34,144 bases of DNA from Actinomycetes bacterium (lineage in GTDB: Bacteria; Actinomycetota; Thermoleophilia; Solirubrobacterales; Solirubrobacteraceae): the NCBI GenBank assembly GCA_021792455.1, contig JAJYUP010000020.1, positions 1-34,144 on the forward strand. Direction: 5' to 3'. A program made the position numbers and the translations under genes. The stretch's first letter is position 1; every line of letters begins with the position of its first letter. Under the pieces are notes generated by a model, which saw nothing but the letters and a program-made list of their open reading frames with translations, had not been told where the DNA came from and ran no database searches. Of the stretch, positions 15,038 through 33,912 are shown piece by piece.

Positions 15038-16315
15038 ATGACAGCTCGATGCGAGCTGCTGGCGGCGGCAACGATCCTGCCTGATGACCGCGTTCGCACT
15101 CGCGGTGGGCATCGCTGCGCCGCCCAGTATGACGAGGACGCCGTAACGCTTGCGGCGCAGGCCGTGATCGCGCTCCGCCAGGACAGGCTGGAGCCACCTT
15201 CAGCGCTCATCTTCGCGACGGTCACACCGCCCTACGAGGAGGGCGGCTGCGCCCAGCTTGTCGCTGAGATCGCCGGCCTGCCCTCCCAGCTGTTCACCGT
15301 CGAGCTGACGGCAACCCCCCGCGACGGTCTTGCCGCGGTGCGGCTCGCATGTGGGCTCATCTGCGCTGGTGGTGGACACGTGCTGGTGTGCGCCTCGCAC
15401 CGGCGGCGTGCCGATGGCGAGCGGGAGGCGGGCGACGGTGCAGTCGCGCTGCTGCTTGGGCCTCCAGGAGCGGAGGGCGGCATCGCGCTGCTCACCCCTG
15501 TCCACTCCCACGCCGAGGAGCTGCGCGACCGTTGGCGGCTGCCAGGCGATCTCGCTCCGCGAGAGGGTGACGCATCCTTCACCGACGAGCTCGGCTCCAC
15601 GCGCGTCGCGCGGCTGCTTGCGGAGGCCCGACAGGCTGGCGAGCCGGGCGAGGAGGCTCCCCAGCCGATCGTCGTCGCCTCCTCATCGCGCGCCGCAGGG
15701 CGCCTCGAGCGCGCGCTTGGCGGCCCTGGCGATCAGGCCTTCGTGCGCACAGGCCTGCTCGGGTGCGCGCATCCGCTGCTGCGGATGCTGCTCTGCCTCG
15801 GTGAGCCCTCCCTGCTGCTCGCGGCCTCTGGCGGCCTCGGCGAGAGCCTGCTCGTCGAGCCTGAGGCGGCGGGGGCGGCGCTCGCCGCTGAGGTCTCAGG
15901 AAGAGTCGCCGCAGGGCGCGAGGTCGACGCCGTGCCCCCGAGCCCCGCTGCCCTCGGCTTCGACCCATACGCATCAGGCCCGCGCGCGTGGCGCGAGCGA
16001 GGGCAGGATCTGCGCCTCGAGGGGGTGCTTCGCGATGGCGAGATCCTCTATCCGCCTCCCGCCGGCCTTCAGGGGCCGCGGCAGCCGCTGCCACGGCGCG
16101 GGCGCGTGATCACCCACACCTTCGACTACGTCTATCCAGGCGCCGACGGCGTGCAGATGGTCGTGCTCGAGCTCGAGGACGGCAGCCGCTTCTACTGCCA
16201 GGTGCTGCCAGGGCAGAGGCTGCAGATCGACGAGGAGGCTCAGCTGCTGCCGAGGCGACTGCATGAGGGGGGCGGCATGATCCAATACTTCTGGAAGGCT
16301 GCGCAATGCCGATAG
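15038..16315 (+). CDS. HMG-CoA-synthase-like protein fused to a DUF35-type OB-fold domain
   Basis: Residues 1-~290 follow 3-hydroxy-3-methylglutaryl-CoA synthase-like proteins: YDEDAVTLAAQA, ALIFATVTPPY, GDGAVALLLG (132-141) and DRWRLPGD. The catalytic cysteine region is ELTATPRDGLAAV (89-101), with Thr/Pro where the family's Cys would be. Residues ~354-425 (HTFDYVYPGADGVQMVVLELEDG...) form a DUF35-like OB fold with no zinc cysteines. Related proteins elsewhere work beside thiolases and DUF35 proteins as acyl-CoA carriers or channels. The ATG at 15038 gives 425 residues and starts at the first family-like strand; the upstream open frame runs through the operator. It overlaps the thiolase gene by 10 bp. 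An active synthase is unlikely; a structural partner of the thiolase is my inference. Confidence 0.75.
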   Translation: MTARCELLAAATILPDDRVRTRGGHRCAAQYDEDAVTLAAQAVIALRQDRLEPPSALIFATVTPPYEEGGCAQLVAEIAGLPSQLFTVELTATPRDGLAAVRLACGLICAGGGHVLVCASHRRRADGEREAGDGAVALLLGPPGAEGGIALLTPVHSHAEELRDRWRLPGDLAPREGDASFTDELGSTRVARLLAEARQAGEPGEEAPQPIVVASSSRAAGRLERALGGPGDQAFVRTGLLGCAHPLLRMLLCLGEPSLLLAASGGLGESLLVEPEAAGAALAAEVSGRVAAGREVDAVPPSPAALGFDPYASGPRAWRERGQDLRLEGVLRDGEILYPPPAGLQGPRQPLPRRGRVITHTFDYVYPGADGVQMVVLELEDGSRFYCQVLPGQRLQIDEEAQLLPRRLHEGGGMIQYFWKAAQCR

Positions 16316-17493
16316 CGGGCGAGGTCGCGATCATCGGCTCGGCGGCGACTCGCTTCGGGGTCATCCACGATCGCGGATACCTCGACCTGCTCGCGGAGGC
16401 TGCGCGCGGCGCGATCGCCGACGCTCAGCTGACCCAGGATGAGATCGAGGCTGCCTGGCTTGGAACTGCGGAGCCGCTGACGGCGGCGCTGCTCGGCGAC
16501 GCGGGCACGGCCGTGACAGAGGCCCTGCCGGGGTTTGCCCCCCGGCCGGTCACGCGCGTCTCGACGTTCTGCTGCACCGGCATGGAGGCGGTGCGGGCGG
16601 CGGCGATGGCGATCGCCGCCGGCGAGCACGACTATGTGCTCGCGGTCGGCGCGGAGAAGATGCGCGACGTGCCGCCGCGGGGCAGCCTCGTCGCGCGCAC
16701 CGCGAACCTCACCCATCCGACGCTCGCGAAGGGACGAACTGCGCCAGGGCAGTTTGCGCTGCTCGCAAACCGCTACATGCACGAGTACGACTGCACAGTG
16801 GAGGATCTCGCCGCCGTCGCTGTGAAGAACCACGCAAACGCGGCGCGCAACCCGATCGCCCAGTACAGCGATCCGCTCACCGTCGAGCAGGTCCTCAAAG
16901 CACCGAGGGTGGCGGAGCCCCTTGGCGTGCTCGACTGCACGCCGACGACCGATGGCGCGGCCGCCGTCGTTCTCACCTCAGTCGATCGTGCGCGGGCGAG
17001 CGGCCGGCGCTTCGCGGTGATCGAGGGCATCGCCCTCGCCGTCGTCGATGGCTACTACGCCGGCTTCTATCACGATGAGGCCGACTATCTCGGCTTCCAC
17101 GTCACGAGGGCGGCGGCGGCGAGCGCCTACCGGCAGGCGGGCATCACCGCGCCGCGGCAGCAGCTCGACGTGATCGAGTGCCACGACTGCTTCACGATCA
17201 CCGAGCTCGTCAACTGCGAGGACCTCGGCCTGTGCGAGCGAGGGGAGGGCGTTCGCCTGCTGCGCGAAGGCGTCACCTCGGCGGAGGGCGAGGTGCCCGT
17301 CAACCTCTCTGGCGGCCTGCAGGCGTGTGGCCACCCTGTCGGCGCGACGGGCGTGAGGATGATCAAGGAGATCGCAGACCAGGTGCTCGGCCGCGCGGAT
17401 GAGCGCCAGGTGCAGGGGGCGCGCCGCGGCCTCGCTCACACGCTCGGCGGCCCTGGGGTCGCCTCGTGCGTCGCAGTGATCGCTGCGCCTTAG
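16306..17493 (+). CDS. Thiolase family protein, SCP-x/lipid-transfer type, with intact catalytic motifs
   Basis: This 395-residue protein has a nucleophile region FCCTGMEA (Cys90 probable), a His in ECHDCFTITE and the C-terminal CGHPVGATG. These match the Cys-His-Cys/His set of SCP-2/3-ketoacyl-CoA thiolases, unlike the two thiolase-like proteins at 28055 and 29155. It should cleave a 3-ketoacyl-CoA with CoA, or run the reverse reaction. Its start lies within the end of the HMG-CoA-synthase-like gene, so the two are probably made together and may form a complex through the OB-fold domain, as thiolase/DUF35 pairs do. The following VOC gene is 51 bp away. Confidence 0.88.
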   Translation: MPIAGEVAIIGSAATRFGVIHDRGYLDLLAEAARGAIADAQLTQDEIEAAWLGTAEPLTAALLGDAGTAVTEALPGFAPRPVTRVSTFCCTGMEAVRAAAMAIAAGEHDYVLAVGAEKMRDVPPRGSLVARTANLTHPTLAKGRTAPGQFALLANRYMHEYDCTVEDLAAVAVKNHANAARNPIAQYSDPLTVEQVLKAPRVAEPLGVLDCTPTTDGAAAVVLTSVDRARASGRRFAVIEGIALAVVDGYYAGFYHDEADYLGFHVTRAAAASAYRQAGITAPRQQLDVIECHDCFTITELVNCEDLGLCERGEGVRLLREGVTSAEGEVPVNLSGGLQACGHPVGATGVRMIKEIADQVLGRADERQVQGARRGLAHTLGGPGVASCVAVIAAP

Positions 17494-26902: not shown

Positions 26903-27095
26903 GGATTGACGTCGAGGCAACGCCTTCAGCCGCCGCCCTGCGATGGCTGTCGCACGAGGTGTGCGGAGGATGCTGAGCCTGGTGTGGCGGAGATGTGGCG
27001 CGTGGTGTGGCGAGGACGCGGCGCCCGGTGTGATCAGGCGGTGGCGCCCGACGTGGCGAGTGAGTGGCGGGAAAGGATGGGGCGAGGAGACGAGG
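26903..27095. other. Leader region of the SDR at 27096, with degenerate GTGTGGCG repeats
   Basis: Between the operator and the SDR start lie ~190 bp with repeated TGTGGCG words (around 26981-27010, and more diverged to ~27060). The SDR frame is open here up to 26943, but the translation is Trp/Arg-rich and unlike an SDR, so I treat it as untranslated leader. No structured RNA family is recognised. Confidence 0.3.
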
Positions 27096-27887
27096 ATGGG
27101 CGGATTCGACGTATCGAACATGGTCGTGTGGGTGACAGGCTCCTCCCGCGGCATCGGGCGGGGGATCGCGACTCATCTCGGACGGCAGGGGGCCGCGGTT
27201 GCCGTTCACGCCCGCTCTGAGGAGGCGCTCGAGCCTGTGCTCGGGCAGCTGCAGGCAATCGGTGCAAAGGCGCTTGGGGTCGCCGCGGACGTGCGCGACG
27301 AGCAGGCTGTGCAGGCAGCTGCGCTGCGCATCGCCGACCACTTCGGCAAGCTCGACGGTCTCGTCGCAAACGTCGGCGGGGCCGCCCACGCTCCGCTTGC
27401 GGAGGTGTCGCTCGAGCGGTTCCGCCGCCAGCTCGATCTCAACCTCACCTCAGCGCTCTCTGTTCTGCAGTCCGCCCACCCCCTGCTCCACGCGGCGAGG
27501 GGATCTGCCGTGCTGATCTCCGCGACCGCGGCGAGCAGCCCGACGCCCCAGTTCGGTCCCTATGGCGCCGCGAAGGCCGCGCTCGAGCACCTGAGTCGCT
27601 CGCTTGCGGCGGAGTGGGGTCCAGAGGTGCGAGTCAACTGCGTCTCCCCAGGCCTGATCGCGACGGAGGGGTCGCTGCGCGCCGTCTTCCGGGGGCGTGA
27701 GGAGCTCGTTGAGAAGGCGGGCTCGAGCACGGCTGTCGGGCGCGTCGGCGAGGTGGAGGACATCGCCTGGGCCTGCCAGTACCTGCTGAGCGAGGCGGCC
27801 TCCTTCGTCTCCGGTTCGGTGCTCGTTCTCGACGGCGGTCCCACGGAGGGTCCGACGCAGCGTATCCTGCGACTGATCGAGGATTGA
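27096..27887 (+). CDS. SDR family oxidoreductase
   Basis: This SDR of 263 residues has VTGSSRGIG (13-21), Ser142, Tyr156 and Lys160, then VNCVSPGLIATEG and a VLDGG end. NNAG is replaced by ANVG (91-94). His-Ala-Arg after the second strand suggests NADP(H). The ATG at 27096 with GAGGAGA upstream gives a normal N-terminus; a longer in-frame start at 26943 would add 51 atypical residues. It is alone in its unit, divergent from the hydrolase pair, and its final codons form the first copy of the triple repeat at 27873. A ketoreductase or alcohol dehydrogenase role is the family call. Confidence 0.87.
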   Translation: MGGFDVSNMVVWVTGSSRGIGRGIATHLGRQGAAVAVHARSEEALEPVLGQLQAIGAKALGVAADVRDEQAVQAAALRIADHFGKLDGLVANVGGAAHAPLAEVSLERFRRQLDLNLTSALSVLQSAHPLLHAARGSAVLISATAASSPTPQFGPYGAAKAALEHLSRSLAAEWGPEVRVNCVSPGLIATEGSLRAVFRGREELVEKAGSSTAVGRVGEVEDIAWACQYLLSEAASFVSGSVLVLDGGPTEGPTQRILRLIED

Positions 27888-28054: not shown

Positions 28055-29158
28055 ATGGCTCGAACAGGCAAACAGACATGGATCATCGGCCTCGGTGAGG
28101 CGCGCAGCGCACCGAAACGCGATGATCTCGCGATCAACGAGCTCGCCTGGGAGGCGATCTCGCCGGCGCTCGAGGACGCGGGCGTTGCGCTCTCGCAGAT
28201 CACGGGGGCGGCGACGGCGAGCCAGGACTTCTGGGATGGGCGCACGATCTCGAGCATGAACGTGAACGAGCTCGTCGGAGGCACGACAGGCTCAGAGGCG
28301 AAGGTCGCCGCCGACGGCGCACAGGCGCTCGCATACGCCGCCGCGAGGATCGCCGACGACGACCAGCACCTCAACCTCGTGCTCGCCCACGCGAAGGAGT
28401 CCCAAGGCGATCCGCATGCGATCGAGATCGCGGCGTTCGACCCCTTCTTCGAGCGCCAGCTCGACCCAGACGAGACGGTGCTCGCCGGCCTCCAGGCCCA
28501 GCAGCTGTATGCGACGGGCGAGTTCACCCCTCAGCATGCCGCAGAGGTGCTCGCCGCCTGCAGGTCCCGCTCAGAGGTGCTCGAGCACATCACCGCCGAG
28601 CAGGTCCTCGCCTCGCCGCTCAGCGCCTCCCCGCTGCATGAGCTCGATCGCGCGCCCTTCATCGATGCCGCCGCCGCCCTCGTCGTCTGCAGCGACTCGA
28701 TGAGGCAGGCCCTGAAAGCGGGCGGCGTGAGGGTGGCAGCGACCAGCTCGCGCACGAGCGCCTACTGGAGCCAGCGTGAGAGCCTGCATGAGGCTCCGCT
28801 TGCGGGGCAGGCCGCGCAGGAGGCACTCGCGCTCGCAGGCTGGAGCATCGACGATGTCGACTACATGGAGCTGAACACGCCCTATTCGACGCAGCAGCTG
28901 ATCGTCGCGAAGGCGCTTGGCCTCGGCGGTGGCGAGGAGCTCGTGAGGCGCCTGAGAAGCGATGCGGCGATCAACCCCTCAGGCGGCTGGCTCGCCGGCG
29001 CCGCAGGCGGCGTCGCGGGGCTGCGCTCTGTGGTCCGGATGACGCGGCTGCTGCGGCAGCGTCCCTCACGGGCGCTGATCTACTCGACGACGGGCCTGTG
29101 CCTGCAGTCCCACCACATAGTCCTGCTCGAGAGCAGCGCAGAGGAGGTGAGTCGATGA
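28055..29158 (+). CDS. Thiolase-like protein lacking catalytic motifs (probable non-catalytic subunit)
   Basis: The 367 residues follow the thiolase-like fold of SCP-x/lipid-transfer proteins (WIIGLGEA..., NELAWEAISPALEDAGV; YMELNTPYSTQQLIVAKALGLG; INPSGGWLAGAAGGVAGLRSV). The nucleophile region reads GGTTGSEAKVAADG with no Cys, the HD.F motif is NTPYS, and GHPxGATG is replaced by AGAAGGVAG. None of the thiolase catalytic residues remains. The stop overlaps the next thiolase-like gene (ATGA), so a heteromeric complex is likely. The ATG at 28055 is fixed by the operator upstream. A structural or acyl-CoA-binding subunit is the best guess. Confidence 0.8.
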   Translation: MARTGKQTWIIGLGEARSAPKRDDLAINELAWEAISPALEDAGVALSQITGAATASQDFWDGRTISSMNVNELVGGTTGSEAKVAADGAQALAYAAARIADDDQHLNLVLAHAKESQGDPHAIEIAAFDPFFERQLDPDETVLAGLQAQQLYATGEFTPQHAAEVLAACRSRSEVLEHITAEQVLASPLSASPLHELDRAPFIDAAAALVVCSDSMRQALKAGGVRVAATSSRTSAYWSQRESLHEAPLAGQAAQEALALAGWSIDDVDYMELNTPYSTQQLIVAKALGLGGGEELVRRLRSDAAINPSGGWLAGAAGGVAGLRSVVRMTRLLRQRPSRALIYSTTGLCLQSHHIVLLESSAEEVSR

Positions 29159-30333
29159 AGAGCCTCGACGCAGTGCGCACTGCCGTCGTCGCCGTCGGCC
29201 AGACAGAGCATGGGCGTCGTCTCGATGCAAGCATGGCTGAGCTCGCGCGCGAGGCGATCGACAGGGCACTCGACTCGAAAGGCCTCACCCTCGAGGACAT
29301 CGACGCAGTCGTCGCGGGCAACATGGAGATGTTCGAGGGCATATACCTCGTCGATCAGCTGTTCGTCGGCGCGCTCGGCGCGCTTGGCAAGCCCCTCTAC
29401 AAGCTGAACACAGGTGGAACCGTCGGCGCGAGCACGGCCCTCGCCTGCTACCACCTCGTCGCCTCCGGCAGGCACGAGAGAGTGCTTGGCGTCGGTTTCC
29501 AGAAGCAGTCCGACGGCTCGACCCAGGCGGCGATCACGACGGTCGGAGACCCCGTCTGGGAGCGGGCGGTGATGGCGGGGGCGATCGGCAACTTCGCCTC
29601 GATGGCCTCGACCTACATCGCCGAAAGCGGCGTGACGCCAGAGCAGGCGGCGAAGGTTGCGGTGCTCGCCCGTCGCAACGCCTGCCTCAACCCCTACGCC
29701 CACCTGCGGATGCCTGACATCACCGTCGAGGAGGTGCTCGAATCGGAGATGCTCGCCTATCCGATCCACAGGCTCGACATGTGCCCATCCTCCGACGGTG
29801 CGGCCGCGATCGTGATGGCCTCTGAGGATGTCGCAGGCGAGATCGCCGATCAGCCGGCGTGGGTGCACGCGGTTGCGACGGTCCACGACCAGCAGTACAT
29901 GGGCGACAGCCCGAAGCGGCTCGCGGTGATGCGTTCGCTGAGGGGTGCCGCAGCGAAGGCGTACTCGATCGCAGGCATCGACTATCCGCTGCGTCAGCTC
30001 GACGTCGCCGAGGTCTATGAGCCCGCCTCATACGCTCTGCTCGCGATGTGCGAGAACCTCGGGTTCTGCGCGATGGGCGACGGCGGGCGCCTCATCGATG
30101 ACGGTGTGATCACGATGGAAGGGCAGCTGCCTGTCAATCCCTCTGGCGGGGTGCTCGCAACCAACCCAGTTGGGGCGACTGCGATGATCAGGGTCGTCGA
30201 GGCGGCCTCCCAGGTGATGGGCCTCGCCGGGGAGCACCAGATCCCTGACGTGAAGCTCGCGCTTGCGACCGGCTATGGAGGCAACGCGTGGACGGACATC
30301 ATCATCCTCGGCAGGCAGAGGCCGCGGCGTTGA
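29155..30333 (+). CDS. Thiolase-like protein, degenerate or variant active site
   Basis: The 392 residues match the thiolase family that travels with DUF35 proteins (acetyl-CoA acetyltransferase-like). The Cys position reads NTGGTVGAS, the usual HD/HN is YEPASY, and the C-terminal motif is NPSGGVLATNPVGATA in place of GGxxxGHPxGATG. Tyrosines in this loop resemble those proposed to act in Ltp2-type retro-aldolases, so a C-C lyase rather than a CoA-dependent thiolase is possible. GAGGAGG lies 8 bp before the ATG. It is followed by two OB-fold genes, the same order as known aldolase/DUF35 pairs. Confidence 0.85.
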   Translation: MKSLDAVRTAVVAVGQTEHGRRLDASMAELAREAIDRALDSKGLTLEDIDAVVAGNMEMFEGIYLVDQLFVGALGALGKPLYKLNTGGTVGASTALACYHLVASGRHERVLGVGFQKQSDGSTQAAITTVGDPVWERAVMAGAIGNFASMASTYIAESGVTPEQAAKVAVLARRNACLNPYAHLRMPDITVEEVLESEMLAYPIHRLDMCPSSDGAAAIVMASEDVAGEIADQPAWVHAVATVHDQQYMGDSPKRLAVMRSLRGAAAKAYSIAGIDYPLRQLDVAEVYEPASYALLAMCENLGFCAMGDGGRLIDDGVITMEGQLPVNPSGGVLATNPVGATAMIRVVEAASQVMGLAGEHQIPDVKLALATGYGGNAWTDIIILGRQRPRR

Positions 30334-30355
30334 GGTCCCTCAGGAGGTTTCTCAG

Positions 30356-30862
30356 ATGAGCGATCCAGATCCCCGCGTCCCCGCAGATCCCCGCGAGTTC
30401 AACCGCGAGCAGGCGAGGCGCATAGAACAGCAGGTGACGCTGCACTATCGGTTCGCCGCAGGAAAATACGCGAGCAGGTTCTTCGCCGCCCTGAGAGACG
30501 AAGGGAAGATCCTTGCAAGCAGGGACCGGCAGGGCAACGTGATGATGCCGCCAAGACCTGTGTGCGGGCTGTCAGGGCTGCCGATGGACGAGTGGGTGGA
30601 GGTCGGCCCTGGAGGCGTGCTTGCAGGCTGCACGATCGTCTATGTCCCGTTCATCGATCCGATGACGGGCGTGCAGCGACCCGTCCCCTACGGCTTCGGG
30701 CTCGTGCGGCTCGACGGCGCGGACACGAGCATCTACCATCTCCTCGACGAGACCGATCCGCAGCGCATCGGTGTGGGCAAGCGCGTCGAGGCGGTGTTCA
30801 AGCCGGTGCAGGAGCGCACGGGCTCTCTCGCCGACATCCGCCACTTCCGCCTTCTCGACTGA
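30356..30862 (+). CDS. DUF35-type OB-fold protein, zinc ribbon degenerate
   Basis: The 168 residues show a helical start (ASRFFAALRDEGKILASRDRQGNVMMPPRPVC) and an OB fold (AGCTIVYVPFIDP...PYGFGLVRLDGADTSIYHLLDETDPQRIGVGKRVEAVF). DUF35 proteins normally carry a CxxC...CxxC zinc ribbon between these parts; here only the single Cys in PVCGLSGLP is left, so zinc binding is doubtful. The family partners thiolase-like proteins and helps bind the acyl-CoA (as ChsH2 does with Ltp2). CAGGAGG sits before ATG 30356. Confidence 0.85.
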   Translation: MSDPDPRVPADPREFNREQARRIEQQVTLHYRFAAGKYASRFFAALRDEGKILASRDRQGNVMMPPRPVCGLSGLPMDEWVEVGPGGVLAGCTIVYVPFIDPMTGVQRPVPYGFGLVRLDGADTSIYHLLDETDPQRIGVGKRVEAVFKPVQERTGSLADIRHFRLLD

Positions 30863-30891
30863 CCCGCCTTCCCGACTGACAGGAGCGTGCG

Positions 30892-31326
30892 ATGGAAGAC
30901 ATCGTCTACGAGCAGAGGATCGAACTTCCCTACGTCTACACAGCCGGTGCAGCCCAGCGGGCCGCACTGCAGGGGTTGAGCGAGGGTCGCCTCGTCGCAT
31001 CGTCGGCAGGCGACTGGAGCAACGTGCCTGCCGCCCCGTTCGGGCCTGATGGCAGGCATCTGCGTGAGCTCTCAGATGCAGCCGACGAAGGCGTCGTCGC
31101 TGCCGCGACGAAGGCTCACCACCGGCCTGGTGCGCCTGTCTTTGCGCTCATCCGCATAGATGGCGCCTCGAACGTGATGCTGCATCGCATCGCAGGGCAG
31201 GAGGTGCCTGCCCCTGGGCAGCGTGTGCGTGCGGTGTGGGCGTCTGAGCGCAGCGGCTCGATCCTCGACATCGAGCACTTCGAGCTTCTCAGCGGCGACT
31301 CATCATCGCAGGGCGCCTCCTCGTGA
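30892..31326 (+). CDS. DUF35-type OB-fold protein, no zinc ribbon cysteines
   Basis: This shorter paralogue (144 residues) has the helical entry YTAGAAQRAALQGLSEGRLVASSAGDWSNVPAAPFGPDG, where no Cys remains, and an OB fold (VVAAATKAHHRPGAPVFALIRIDGASNVMLHRIAGQEVPAPGQRVRAVW). With the protein at 30356 it gives two OB-fold partners for two thiolase-like subunits, suggesting a four-component complex. GACAGGAG precedes ATG 30892; the stop overlaps the VOC start (GTGA). Confidence 0.85.
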   Translation: MEDIVYEQRIELPYVYTAGAAQRAALQGLSEGRLVASSAGDWSNVPAAPFGPDGRHLRELSDAADEGVVAAATKAHHRPGAPVFALIRIDGASNVMLHRIAGQEVPAPGQRVRAVWASERSGSILDIEHFELLSGDSSSQGASS

Positions 31327-31760
31327 GCGCCGCGGAGGGGGCAGGCCGCGTCGAGGGGCTCGCGCACGTCGGCATCATCCTCCCTGAGCTGCAGACCGCC
31401 GCGTCGCTGTTCTCTGAGAAGCTCGGGCTCGAGGTGAGCGGACCACATCCTGAGCCTGACCTCGGGCTCGAGGTGCTGTGGGTGAAGGCTGGCGAGACGG
31501 TGCTCGAGTGCATCGCGCCGACCTCACCTGACTCGCGGGCCGCCGCAGCCGTGCAGCGGGGCGAAATCGGGGTCCACCACGTCGCGCTGCAGGTGAGCGG
31601 GCTGGACGGTCTGCTCTCAGCGCTTTCGGAGGCAGGCGTGCCGATACGCGACTCGACCCCACGCCAGGGCGCTCATGGAACGCGCATCTCCTTTCTCGAC
31701 CCTGCTGCGAGCGGGGGCGCTTTGATCGAGCTGATCGAGGAGCCTGAGGGTGAGCGATGA
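31323..31760 (+). CDS. VOC protein, methylmalonyl-CoA-epimerase-like
   Basis: The 145 residues have AHVGIILPELQTAASLFSEKLGLE and a second module IGVHHVALQVSGLDGLLSALSEAGVP, ending GALIELIEE. Metal ligands His (AHVGI), Glu (VLECIA), His (VHHVAL) and Glu (LIELIE) are in methylmalonyl-CoA epimerase positions, so epimerisation alpha to a CoA thioester is likely. The GTG at 31323 overlaps the previous stop, and its end overlaps the CoA-transferase-like gene by 11 bp. Confidence 0.82.
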   Translation: MSAAEGAGRVEGLAHVGIILPELQTAASLFSEKLGLEVSGPHPEPDLGLEVLWVKAGETVLECIAPTSPDSRAAAAVQRGEIGVHHVALQVSGLDGLLSALSEAGVPIRDSTPRQGAHGTRISFLDPAASGGALIELIEEPEGER

Positions 31761-32637
31761 GGCGACGACGATGGCAGTGTGCCTCGCGCGCGAGATCAAC
31801 GAGGCGGATCTCGTCGGAATCGGACTTGGTACGCCTCTTGCGCTCGCGGCGGCGCTGCTCGCCCGTCGCACCCACGCGCGCGGTGCGCACCTCTTCACAG
31901 GCGGGATGGTCGTCCGTCCGCAGGCCGATCTGCTCAGCATCACCCTCGGCGCGAGCGCGCTGGCCGGGCGCTTCACGGGCTTCGTCAGCCATCTCGAGAC
32001 GATGGAGATGGCTGAGCGCCAGAGGATGACGCTGCAGTTTCTGCGCCCCGCTGAGGTCGATGGCTCAGGCAACATCAACACGAGCCGCATCGTCGGAGCA
32101 GACGGTGCGCTCACGCGTCTGCCTGGGGGCCTCGCGAGCGCCGACGTGCCGAAGCTGCTGCCTCGGCTCGTGCTCTACCACACCGACCATCGCCTTCGCT
32201 CGCTGCCAGCGGCTGTGAGCTTCATCACCGGCGCGGGCGGGGGCGACCCCGATCGCGGGGCCGCAGGGCCTGTTCGCCTCATCACCAATCGCGCGGTCTT
32301 CTCCTTCGAGTGCGGCCGCGCGCGCCTTCACAGCGTCCATCCTGGGCACACCGTCGAGGAGGTGCTCGAATCCACAGGCTTCCGCTGCGATGTCGAGGGC
32401 GTCGTGCAGACCGACGAGCCGACTGCCTTCGAGCTCGAGCAGCTGCGGATCGTCGATGAGCTCGAGCTTGCGGAGCTCGAGTTTCGGAGCACGAGGCGGG
32501 CGGCCGCAGCGAGGCTCGCGCGCGCTCTCGCGCAGGTGGAGATCGACGATTCGCGCGATGTCGCGGACCCTCAGCGCGCCTGCGAGGGAGAGGCGCCACC
32601 AACCAAGCAGCGTCAGGAGACCAGATGCCAGAGATGA
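31750..32637 (+). CDS. Class-I CoA-transferase beta-subunit-like protein
   Basis: The 295 residues match the beta side of glutaconate-CoA-transferase/IpdB-like proteins: GIGLGTPLALAAALLARR at the start, AEVDGSGNINTSRI in the middle, then VRLITNRAVFSFECGRARLHSVHPGHTVEEVLESTGF. The active-site glutamate region of true transferases is FTGGMV, with no Glu, as in IpdB. IpdAB hydrolytically opens the last steroid ring. The C-terminal ~30 residues are low complexity. It lies between two VOC genes, with its possible alpha partner at 33109. Start is GTG 31750. Confidence 0.8.
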   Translation: MSDEATTMAVCLAREINEADLVGIGLGTPLALAAALLARRTHARGAHLFTGGMVVRPQADLLSITLGASALAGRFTGFVSHLETMEMAERQRMTLQFLRPAEVDGSGNINTSRIVGADGALTRLPGGLASADVPKLLPRLVLYHTDHRLRSLPAAVSFITGAGGGDPDRGAAGPVRLITNRAVFSFECGRARLHSVHPGHTVEEVLESTGFRCDVEGVVQTDEPTAFELEQLRIVDELELAELEFRSTRRAAAARLARALAQVEIDDSRDVADPQRACEGEAPPTKQRQETRCQR

Positions 32638-33104
32638 GATTCGACCACGTTGCGATGCTCGTGCACGACCTCGACGAGTCCGTTGCGAAGTGGCGCACTG
32701 TGCTCGAGGTGCTCGACCCCGCCCAGAGCAGGGAGGTCGTCTATGGGGAAGGGGAAGAGGGAGGCGAGCGGATGCGCTGGGCGACGTTCGTCAACCCGGG
32801 CAAGACATCGATCCAGCTGTTCTCGCCCGCGGGTGAGGGCTTCCTGAAGAAGGTGCTCGCCAAGCGCGGGGAGATGGTGCACCACGTCGCGTTTCTCTCG
32901 AGCGACGTCGACGCGACCGTTCAGGAACTGCGCGATCGCGGGGTTCCGATCCTGCAGGAGCAGCAGACCGGCCCTGACACCTACCCATGGCTGCGGTGGA
33001 ACTTCGTTCCGAACGACTACTCTGGCGGGGTGCTGATCGAGGTCGCTCAGCGCTACCAGGTTGAGGATGGAAAGTGGGCGCCTGTCCCTGGTGACCCGCA
33101 GTAG
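32625..33104 (+). CDS. VOC (glyoxalase/epimerase-like) protein
   Basis: The 159 residues read FDHVAMLVHDLDESVAKWRTVLEVLDP, TSIQLFSP and, in the second module, EMVHHVAFLSSDVDATVQELRDRGVPIL, ending GVLIEVAQRY. His, Gln, His and Glu occupy the metal-ligand slots; Gln for the first Glu also occurs in some epimerases. It overlaps the CoA-transferase-like gene by 13 bp and precedes the alpha subunit by 4 bp, so it is part of the same tightly packed operon. A likely role is epimerisation or isomerisation of a CoA intermediate. Confidence 0.82.
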   Translation: MPEMRFDHVAMLVHDLDESVAKWRTVLEVLDPAQSREVVYGEGEEGGERMRWATFVNPGKTSIQLFSPAGEGFLKKVLAKRGEMVHHVAFLSSDVDATVQELRDRGVPILQEQQTGPDTYPWLRWNFVPNDYSGGVLIEVAQRYQVEDGKWAPVPGDPQ

Positions 33105-33108
33105 TGCG

Positions 33109-33912
33109 ATGGCGGAGCGGTGGACAAAGGCGCTCGACCGTCCAGGCAGCCTCGCTGCGGCGCTTTCAGGGATAGGAGACGGCGCGACGGTCGCGCTTGG
33201 GGGCGCTTCGCTGCAGCGCAAGCCGATCGCGGCGGTGCGCGCGCTCATCGACCTTCGACCAGCTCAGCTGCGCGTGATCTCCGTGCTCGGCTCCCTCGAC
33301 GTCGAGCTGCTGATCGCCGCAGGCGTCGTTGCTGAGCTGCACAGCGCAGGCGTCGGGCTCGACGGGGCCGGCCTCGCCCCGCGCTACCGGGCCGCGCGCG
33401 AGAGGGGATCCGTCAAGTTCGTCGAGTGGTCTGAGGGGACGCTGCTGTGTGCCCTCGAAGCGCAGGCGAGAGGCGTCCCCTCGCTGCCGACGTGGATGGC
33501 CCTGGGCAGCGACCTGCCCGCGCTCAACGACAACCTCCGTCAGGTGAGCGACCCGTTCACGGGCGAGCCTGTGATCCAGGTGCGCGCGCTCCACCTCGAC
33601 GCGGCGATCATCCACGTCAGTGGTGTCGACGTGCATGGCAACGCCTACGTAGATGGGGACATCGCCTTCGACGGCGCGCTCGCGAGGGCGGCGGACCGCA
33701 CGATCGTCACCTACGAGTCGCTGCGCCCAGCACAGCCTGAGCTCGCCTCGATCTCGCGTCTGTGGATCGACACCGTCGTCCCCGCCCCCTCAGGCGCGGC
33801 GCCGACGGGATGCCACGCCCTCTATCGCGCCGACCACGAGGTGATATCGCGGTGGGCGTCCGCCGGCGCGGAGGCGGACCCTGCGCTGCTTGCTGCAGGG
33901 AGCGGCGCATGA
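33109..33912 (+). CDS. Class-I CoA-transferase alpha-subunit-like protein (IpdA-like)
   Basis: The 267 residues follow the alpha subunit: IGDGATVALGGASLQRKPIAAVRALI, SLDVELLIAAG, FVEWSEGTLLCALEAQARGVPSLPTWMALGSD, and the family signature AIIHVSGVDVHGNAYVDGD. The RKP after the glycine stretch and the EG.L.C.L.A segment resemble IpdA of steroid catabolism more than acetate- or succinate-type transferases. The ATG at 33109 is the natural start; the open frame begins at 33061 inside the VOC gene. The stop overlaps the next gene (ATGA), its likely beta partner. Confidence 0.85.
   Translation: MAERWTKALDRPGSLAAALSGIGDGATVALGGASLQRKPIAAVRALIDLRPAQLRVISVLGSLDVELLIAAGVVAELHSAGVGLDGAGLAPRYRAARERGSVKFVEWSEGTLLCALEAQARGVPSLPTWMALGSDLPALNDNLRQVSDPFTGEPVIQVRALHLDAAIIHVSGVDVHGNAYVDGDIAFDGALARAADRTIVTYESLRPAQPELASISRLWIDTVVPAPSGAAPTGCHALYRADHEVISRWASAGAEADPALLAAGSGA

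Follow-up and report, generated by a model that had tools for sequence, protein, structure and literature searches.

The closest described counterpart of the system considered here is the Ltp3-Ltp4 pair, which is described as a heteromeric aldol-lyase that cuts the C24-C25 bond of branched sterol side chains once these have been carboxylated and hydrated (in the passage of PMC6678751 that cites Wilbrink 2012); a role in branched sterol side-chain cleavage is also given in PMC10398937. In the Rv3515c-Rv3523 region of Mycobacterium tuberculosis the gene order is fadD19, echA19, cyp142, Rv3520c, Rv3521, ltp4 and ltp3 (PMC6429209). These genes are usually treated as steroid genes, and the literature that we searched gives only genetic evidence for them. 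Here we describe a set of four genes, henceforth the quartet, on a 34,144-nucleotide stretch of DNA from a member of the Solirubrobacteraceae (GenBank JAJYUP010000020.1; henceforth the window), which is an entire contig (C13) of a 3.15 Mb genome assembly of 83% completeness. The quartet consists of four head-to-tail open reading frames (ORFs) at 28055-31326 on the forward strand, which encode two thiolase-like proteins, ThlA and ThlB, and two DUF35/OB-fold proteins, OB1 and OB2. An earlier reading of this DNA, made from the sequence alone (the sequence-only reading), had delineated the same thiolase-like/DUF35 set at this place, and our Pfam and tblastn matches agree with it. Our analysis suggests that the quartet is probably, though well short of certainly, a heteromeric retro-aldolase orthologous to, though divergent from, the Ltp3-Ltp4-(DUF35)2 aldol-lyase.

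Relationship of the quartet to Ltp3 and Ltp4

ThlB matched Pfam PF22691 (2e-31), and its best curated family was NF006180 (PRK08313; 2.2e-116, 388.9 bits, below the cut-off of 514). ThlA matched PF02803 (1.7e-8), with NF005924 (PRK07937; 1.3e-36, 126.8 bits, below the cut-off of 419) as its best curated family. PRK07937 and PRK08313 are the families of two adjacent thiolase-like genes in a widespread actinobacterial locus, where the thiolase-like pair is preceded by two DUF35 domains, which in most cases form a single fused protein. The order in one actinobacterial genome is ligase, hydratase, F420-type oxidoreductase, double DUF35, PRK07937 and PRK08313, and given its agreement with the published M. 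tuberculosis order we identified this locus as Rv3521-Rv3523. In a tree of 90 proteins, which took in Ltp2 and thiolases and left out Sal, the ThlA/Ltp4 rows and the ThlB/Ltp3 rows each gathered without exception on a branch of their own (support 99 for either). Both branches stand apart from Ltp2 and the SCP2 thiolases, and the two subdivide in parallel. At the level of sequence, ThlA and ThlB almost certainly represent divergent orthologues of Ltp4 and Ltp3, respectively. The sequence-only reading had likened the set to Ltp2/ChsH2-type retro-aldolases with two of each component. The two of each component are indeed there; however, as Ltp2 lies outside the ThlB/Ltp3 branch, membership of ThlB in the Ltp2 group is ruled out, and the quartet is not a doubled Ltp2/ChsH2 but corresponds to the known Ltp3/Ltp4/double-DUF35 module.

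ThlA and ThlB overlap by an ATGA at 29155-29158, and OB2 also overlaps the next gene, VOC1 (Table 1). The start of OB1 was taken at 30356 and not at the upstream TTG at 30263. We compared the four genes with those of the sister genome G014, deposited as a Solirubrobacterales metagenome-assembled genome, using a simple counting estimate of the ratio of nonsynonymous to synonymous substitution rates (dN/dS; dS 0.7 to 1.4). The values were 0.28 for ThlA, 0.11 for ThlB, 0.06 for OB1 and 0.18 for OB2, pointing to purifying selection on all four genes that is strongest on ThlB and OB1 and weaker on ThlA and OB2. Since dN/dS is below 0.3 throughout, the genes are not decayed, and that explanation was ruled out.

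Active-site residues, zinc ribbons and subunit assembly

As a reference, the alignment used SCP2 thiolases found within the same group of genomes, including the normal thiolase encoded elsewhere in the window. A nucleophilic Cys at the active position was found in none of the 57 ThlB proteins and none of the 61 ThlA proteins. ThlA has ADG, NTPY and GAA at the places of the Cys, HDCF and GHP motifs, and the replacements in ThlB are given in Table 1. The sequence-only reading had held that both proteins lack the Cys, HD/HN and GHPxGATG motifs. The Cys and His are gone from both, and the alignment that it proposed as a check recovered no active-site Cys/His pair in either chain, but most of the last motif survives in ThlB as NPVGAT, with the His alone changed. 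An SCP2-type thiolase was accordingly ruled out for both ThlB and ThlA, which have no nucleophilic Cys, HDCF His or GHP His, and BbsB benzoylsuccinyl-coenzyme A (CoA) thiolase was ruled out given that ThlB scores 108 bits on NF053628 against a cut-off of 750.

Tyr302 of CtSal and Tyr294 of TcLtp2 act as the catalytic base that starts retro-aldol cleavage, and CtSal has Gly where thiolases carry the nucleophilic Cys (PMC12329534). This base Tyr of the (H/Y)D(C/H)(F/Y) loop of Ltp2 and Sal is present in ThlB as Tyr288. Beyond the loop, His183 and Tyr374 of ThlB are conserved in the ThlB/Ltp3 branch and not in thiolases. Keeping the aldolase signature and being the slow-evolving chain, ThlB is probably the catalytic subunit.

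The AlphaFold2 model of ThlA (predicted local distance difference test, pLDDT, 89; predicted template modeling score, pTM, 0.91) displays a thiolase fold, and its closest structures are the thiolase chain of the archaeal thiolase/3-hydroxy-3-methylglutaryl-CoA (HMG-CoA) synthase complex and the benzoylsuccinyl-CoA thiolase chains. Given that ThlA is without the catalytic machinery of ThlB and evolves faster, a role as structural partner fits it, and it is probably non-catalytic. Glu81, Asp87 and Gln351 are invariant, ThlA-specific residues across phyla. Residue 343 is Tyr in the ThlA of the window, and His is found there in 60 of 61 ThlA/Ltp4 proteins, that of G014 included.

OB1 matched PF01796 (1.5e-11) with a remnant of zf-ChsH2 (0.0038). 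OB2 matched PF01796 under the gathering score (1.1e-4), and tblastn connected it to actinobacterial DUF35 domains at about 1e-15; its matches to WD40-repeat sequences of the PDB involve repeats of low score, which we regarded as noise. Neither protein has the two CxxC pairs of a rubredoxin-like zinc ribbon (zf-ChsH2). The claim of the sequence-only reading that these pairs are missing stands insofar as no complete pair is present in either protein, but the ribbon alignment shows that OB1 keeps one of the Cys residues (in PPRPVCGLS). Both pairs are complete in 24/24 and 23/24 DUF35 proteins of the wide group, which lies outside the clade of the window, in 0/29 and 8/29 of the actinobacterial Ltp modules, and in none of the window's own group. 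Given that the ribbons are full in other phyla and patchy in the Ltp modules, zinc loss is most simply read as derived, and it happened more than once. Going by these alignments, the loss in the window is lineage-specific; with relatives in other phyla keeping both ribbons in full, the missing zinc residues are not a defining feature.

In a proteobacterial contig (L077:568-3858) the four quartet genes share one reading frame, and the quartet was for that reason modeled there as a single read-through chain. The alignment was confined to in-frame read-through rows, as single-chain rows fell on the wrong half. The resulting model of the relative's proteins, with 11 aligned rows and artificial linkers, reached a pTM of 0.67 and a pLDDT of 71.7. 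Four unplaced domains should score well below this pTM, which would be in line with the 2+2 assembly whose modeling the sequence-only reading had proposed, but with a pLDDT of only 71.7 the model is one of low-to-medium confidence. The result that would have counted against that reading, a confident model devoid of interfaces, did not arise. From matching constraint we infer that ThlB pairs with OB1 and ThlA with OB2.

Gene neighborhood and distribution

The quartet is flanked by further genes on the same strand (Table 1). The IpdA-like subunit retains the Glu for which the IpdAB entry 6coj carries Ala, and its best mycobacterial matches are 35-38% identical; the IpdB-like subunit is nearer AibB. 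There are further IpdA-like copies, three on contig C18 of the window's genome and more on G014:C8.

Table 1. Features of the window discussed in the text, with positions on its forward strand
Feature	Position	Strand	Remarks
HMG-CoA-synthase-like ORF	15038..16315	+	no Pfam match; N-terminal half weakly like archaeal HMG-CoA synthase (NF003274, 1.6e-11); conserved in G014 (65%)
SCP2-type thiolase	16306..17493	+	normal Cys/His (FCCTG, CHDCF, GHP); conserved in G014 (91%)
SDR oxidoreductase	26943..27887	+	directly upstream of quartet; PF13561 (4.5e-60); conserved in G014
ThlA	28055..29158	+	367 amino acids; thiolase-fold, Ltp4 (PRK07937) branch; without catalytic Cys/His; probable non-catalytic partner
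ThlB	29155..30333	+	392 amino acids; thiolase-fold, Ltp3 (PRK08313) branch; probable catalytic subunit
ThlB Gly88	29416..29418	+	replaces thiolase nucleophilic Cys; Gly in 57/57 ThlB/Ltp3 proteins
ThlB Tyr288	30016..30018	+	replaces HDCF His (loop Tyr-Glu-Pro); Tyr in 56/57; equivalent to TcLtp2 Tyr294 and CtSal Tyr302
ThlB Asn337	30163..30165	+	replaces GHP His (Asn337-Pro); Asn in 57/57
OB1	30356..30862	+	DUF35/OB-fold; 1/4 zinc-ribbon Cys left; slow-evolving
OB2	30892..31326	+	DUF35/OB-fold; 0/4 zinc-ribbon Cys left
VOC1	31323..31760	+	methylmalonyl-CoA-epimerase-like; same operon; TIGR03081 (7e-27, below cut-off); conserved in G014
IpdB/AibB-like subunit	31750..32637	+	CoA-transferase fold; same operon; PDB 5n02 (6e-15), 6con (3e-7); conserved in G014, L074, L099
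VOC2	32625..33104	+	epimerase/glyoxalase-like; same operon; PF13669; conserved in G014, L074, L099
IpdA-like subunit	33061..33912	+	CoA-transferase fold; same operon; PDB 6co6 (5.5e-29)

The window also encodes three AMP-forming acyl-CoA ligases and an enoyl-CoA hydratase, to which the syntenic cluster of G014 adds an acyl-CoA dehydrogenase, a second hydratase and the carboxyltransferase of an acyl-CoA carboxylase. An orthologue of the latter, 85% identical, lies on contig C129 of the window's genome. Beyond the G014 cluster there are a probable Liv-type transporter, assigned by eye, and further CoA-transferase-fold genes, and contig C18 of the window's genome is syntenic with this region. Positions 1-27000 of the window carry, along with the three ligases, two xylose-isomerase-like proteins, a luciferase-like F420-type oxidoreductase, a metallo-beta-lactamase fold protein, an epoxide hydrolase, an S15-family hydrolase and several SDR and VOC proteins, and look like one large catabolic region. 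Within it, the HMG-CoA-synthase-like ORF directly precedes the normal thiolase, and the two (15038-17493) are possibly a second thiolase and HMG-CoA-synthase-like complex.

No KshA domain was detected in the window's genome (83% complete) or in the relatives G014, G013, G004 and G041, as against five in the Mycobacterium-type genome G098, and the window has no KstR-like site with fewer than two mismatches. With no KshA found in this genome or its relatives, a sterol broken down through the usual 9,10-seco pathway is not the likely substrate. In a beta-branched acyl-CoA, the hydrated form bears a tertiary alcohol that is not oxidizable to the 3-keto form, and hence such a compound needs a retro-aldol step. 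Given that Ltp3/Ltp4 are proposed to act in a scheme of carboxylation, hydration and then retro-aldol cleavage, and that ligase and hydratase genes are near in the window and dehydrogenase and carboxylase genes in the sister genome, the substrate is probably a beta-branched acyl-CoA and not a sterol.

A single scan of named genomes with the ThlB alignment yielded 30 loci from Anaerolineae, Acidimicrobiia, Proteobacteria, Desulfobacterales, Rokubacteria, Nitrospirae, Acidobacteria and others, sulfate reducers included. In all of these except at contig ends, a ThlA-type gene stands before ThlB and DUF35 genes after it; with the same exception, ThlA-ThlB and two DUF35 domains also occur in 30 Ltp-type loci. 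Within the window's own genus the quartet is present in this form in 2 of 24 genomes and as a 30%-identical set in 2 more, and it looks like an accessory catabolic module. Neighbors in the wide group comprise two enoyl-CoA hydratases, an acyl-CoA dehydrogenase, BKACE (PF05853), an Amidohydro_2 protein, a thioesterase and TetR. Linkage of the quartet with BKACE, Amidohydro_2, the two hydratases, the dehydrogenase and TetR was observed in L075 and L077-L103, from many phyla, and no published pathway for a DUF35-BKACE-amidohydrolase cluster was found in the literature that we searched. We tentatively propose, at a little under even confidence, that an old class of four-subunit aldolases spans many phyla, anaerobes included, with Ltp3/Ltp4 as no more than its actinobacterial branch, a class in which catalytic and non-catalytic thiolase chains, each with its own DUF35 partner, would cleave beta-branched acyl-CoAs in non-sterol pathways, and whose zinc ribbons were discarded in some lineages, that of the window among them.

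Proposed reaction and comparison with described systems

The four genes would thus specify one heteromeric enzyme with ThlB as its catalytic chain. The neighboring ligase, dehydrogenase, carboxylase and hydratase would make a beta-branched substrate, the hydrated form of which carries the tertiary alcohol. Tyr288, standing in place of the thiolase His, may take the proton from the beta-hydroxyl of this CoA thioester as in Ltp2 and Sal, whereupon the C-C bond would break, leaving a shorter acyl-CoA together with a ketone or aldehyde. With Gly88 standing for the nucleophilic Cys, the enzyme cannot carry out thiolysis by way of an acyl-enzyme. The proton donor must differ from those of Ltp2 and Sal because their second residues are missing in ThlB, and His183 and Tyr374 are candidate donors to the enolate. 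ThlA may pair with ThlB as a structural partner, like the chain-length factor with the ketosynthase, with OB1 binding ThlB and OB2 binding ThlA. Retro-aldol cleavage by the quartet appears somewhat better than an even prospect. That the set, in which each component occurs twice, is a heteromeric C-C lyase rather than a thiolase, as the sequence-only reading had suggested, draws support from the tree, the residue changes and the parallel with Ltp3/Ltp4.

Several observations weigh against this interpretation. The scores of ThlA and ThlB fall below the curated NCBIfam cut-offs, so that both are related to the named subfamilies PRK07937 and PRK08313 but outside them. The second catalytic residue of the known aldolases is absent in ThlB, with Asn-Pro at the place of Ltp2 Tyr344 and Pro290 at that of Sal Cys304, and the invariant Glu81, Asp87 and Gln351 could mean that ThlA has a function of its own. 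No one-to-one match of OB1 and OB2 to the two actinobacterial DUF35 domains was obtained. The quartet model is that of a relative, from a shallow alignment with artificial read-through linkers, and thiolase folds dimerize readily in any case. Furthermore, the published role of Ltp3/Ltp4 is genetic, and the literature searched yielded no assay of any protein of this branch and no biochemical study of Ltp3/Ltp4 with Rv3521.

The quartet might instead transfer or join acyl groups via other residues, as an acyltransferase or Claisen-type enzyme comparable to PhlABC or the archaeal thiolase/HMG-CoA synthase complex. These are likewise built from thiolase-fold pairs that a DUF35 protein holds together, and the nearest structures to the ThlA model come from the archaeal complex and benzoylsuccinyl-CoA thiolase, but the lack of an active-position Cys throughout both protein sets and the degradative look of the neighborhood render this unlikely. 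We consider it hardly probable at all that the quartet runs in the direction of synthesis and builds a branched acyl-CoA by aldol condensation: aldol reactions are reversible and the window has an HMG-CoA-synthase-like ORF, but the ligases, hydratase, dehydrogenase, IpdAB-like genes and probable Liv-type transporter of the syntenic cluster speak for degradation.

A non-catalytic acyl-CoA carrier or scaffold passing intermediates between neighboring enzymes, which the sequence-only reading had entertained, would account for the loss of the classical catalytic residues, and DUF35 proteins do scaffold other complexes (PMC12329534). However, we found no positive evidence for it; the polar loop residues Tyr288, His183, Asn337 and Tyr374 of the strongly constrained ThlB are kept family-wide and the orthologues Ltp3/Ltp4 are needed for a specific C-C cleavage step, making a carrier very unlikely. 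Finally, the same reaction could serve a true sterol side-chain pathway, as in mycobacteria and rhodococci. The orthology to Ltp3/Ltp4 and the IpdA Glu retained by the IpdA-like subunit speak for it, but the lack of KshA and KstR-like hits noted above, together with the occurrence of the quartet in sulfate reducers, leave it quite unlikely. For the heteromeric retro-aldolase that we favor, the zinc-intact quartets of Chloroflexota, Proteobacteria, Desulfobacterota, Acidobacteria and others, near hydratases, acyl-CoA dehydrogenase and BKACE, offer simpler systems in which to test subunit roles and reaction, and this would help rename many proteins annotated as 'lipid-transfer protein' or 'acetyl-CoA acetyltransferase'.

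Among described systems, IpdAB/AibAB corresponds to the IpdA-like and IpdB-like subunits that adjoin the quartet, a separate enzyme of the same operon and not part of it. BbsAB benzoylsuccinyl-CoA thiolase (PDB 7PXP) shares the thiolase and DUF35 arrangement and is among the best fold matches of ThlA, but is a working thiolase. The bile-acid aldolase Sal-Shy(DUF35) (PDB 9MYR) has the same base Tyr, fold and DUF35 partner, whereas its Cys304 is absent in ThlB and its thiolase part is homodimeric. The C3 steroid aldolase Ltp2-ChsH2(DUF35) (PDB 6OK1) likewise combines a thiolase-fold aldolase, in which Gly replaces the Cys and Tyr the His, with a DUF35 partner; however, it has one thiolase chain and one DUF35 domain, its Tyr344 is absent in the window, and it occupies a separate branch of the tree. 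Ltp3/Ltp4 with Rv3521 (Rv3521-Rv3523 of M. tuberculosis; ltp3/ltp4 of R. rhodochrous) differ from the quartet in sequence, at 42-46% identity for ThlB and about 26-32% for ThlA, and in that their DUF35 domains are mostly fused and upstream whereas those of the window are separate and downstream; in the window, moreover, the operon includes IpdAB-like and VOC genes, in a genome in which no KshA was found. They agree with it in falling on the same branches, in having two thiolase-like subunits and two DUF35 domains, in the lack of catalytic Cys/His, in the replacement of the HDCF His by Tyr in the Ltp3-type chain and in overlapping genes. The 2+2 composition is therefore not new; what is unexpected is how widely such quartets occur beyond the sterol-degrading actinobacteria, and that their zinc ribbons were lost repeatedly.

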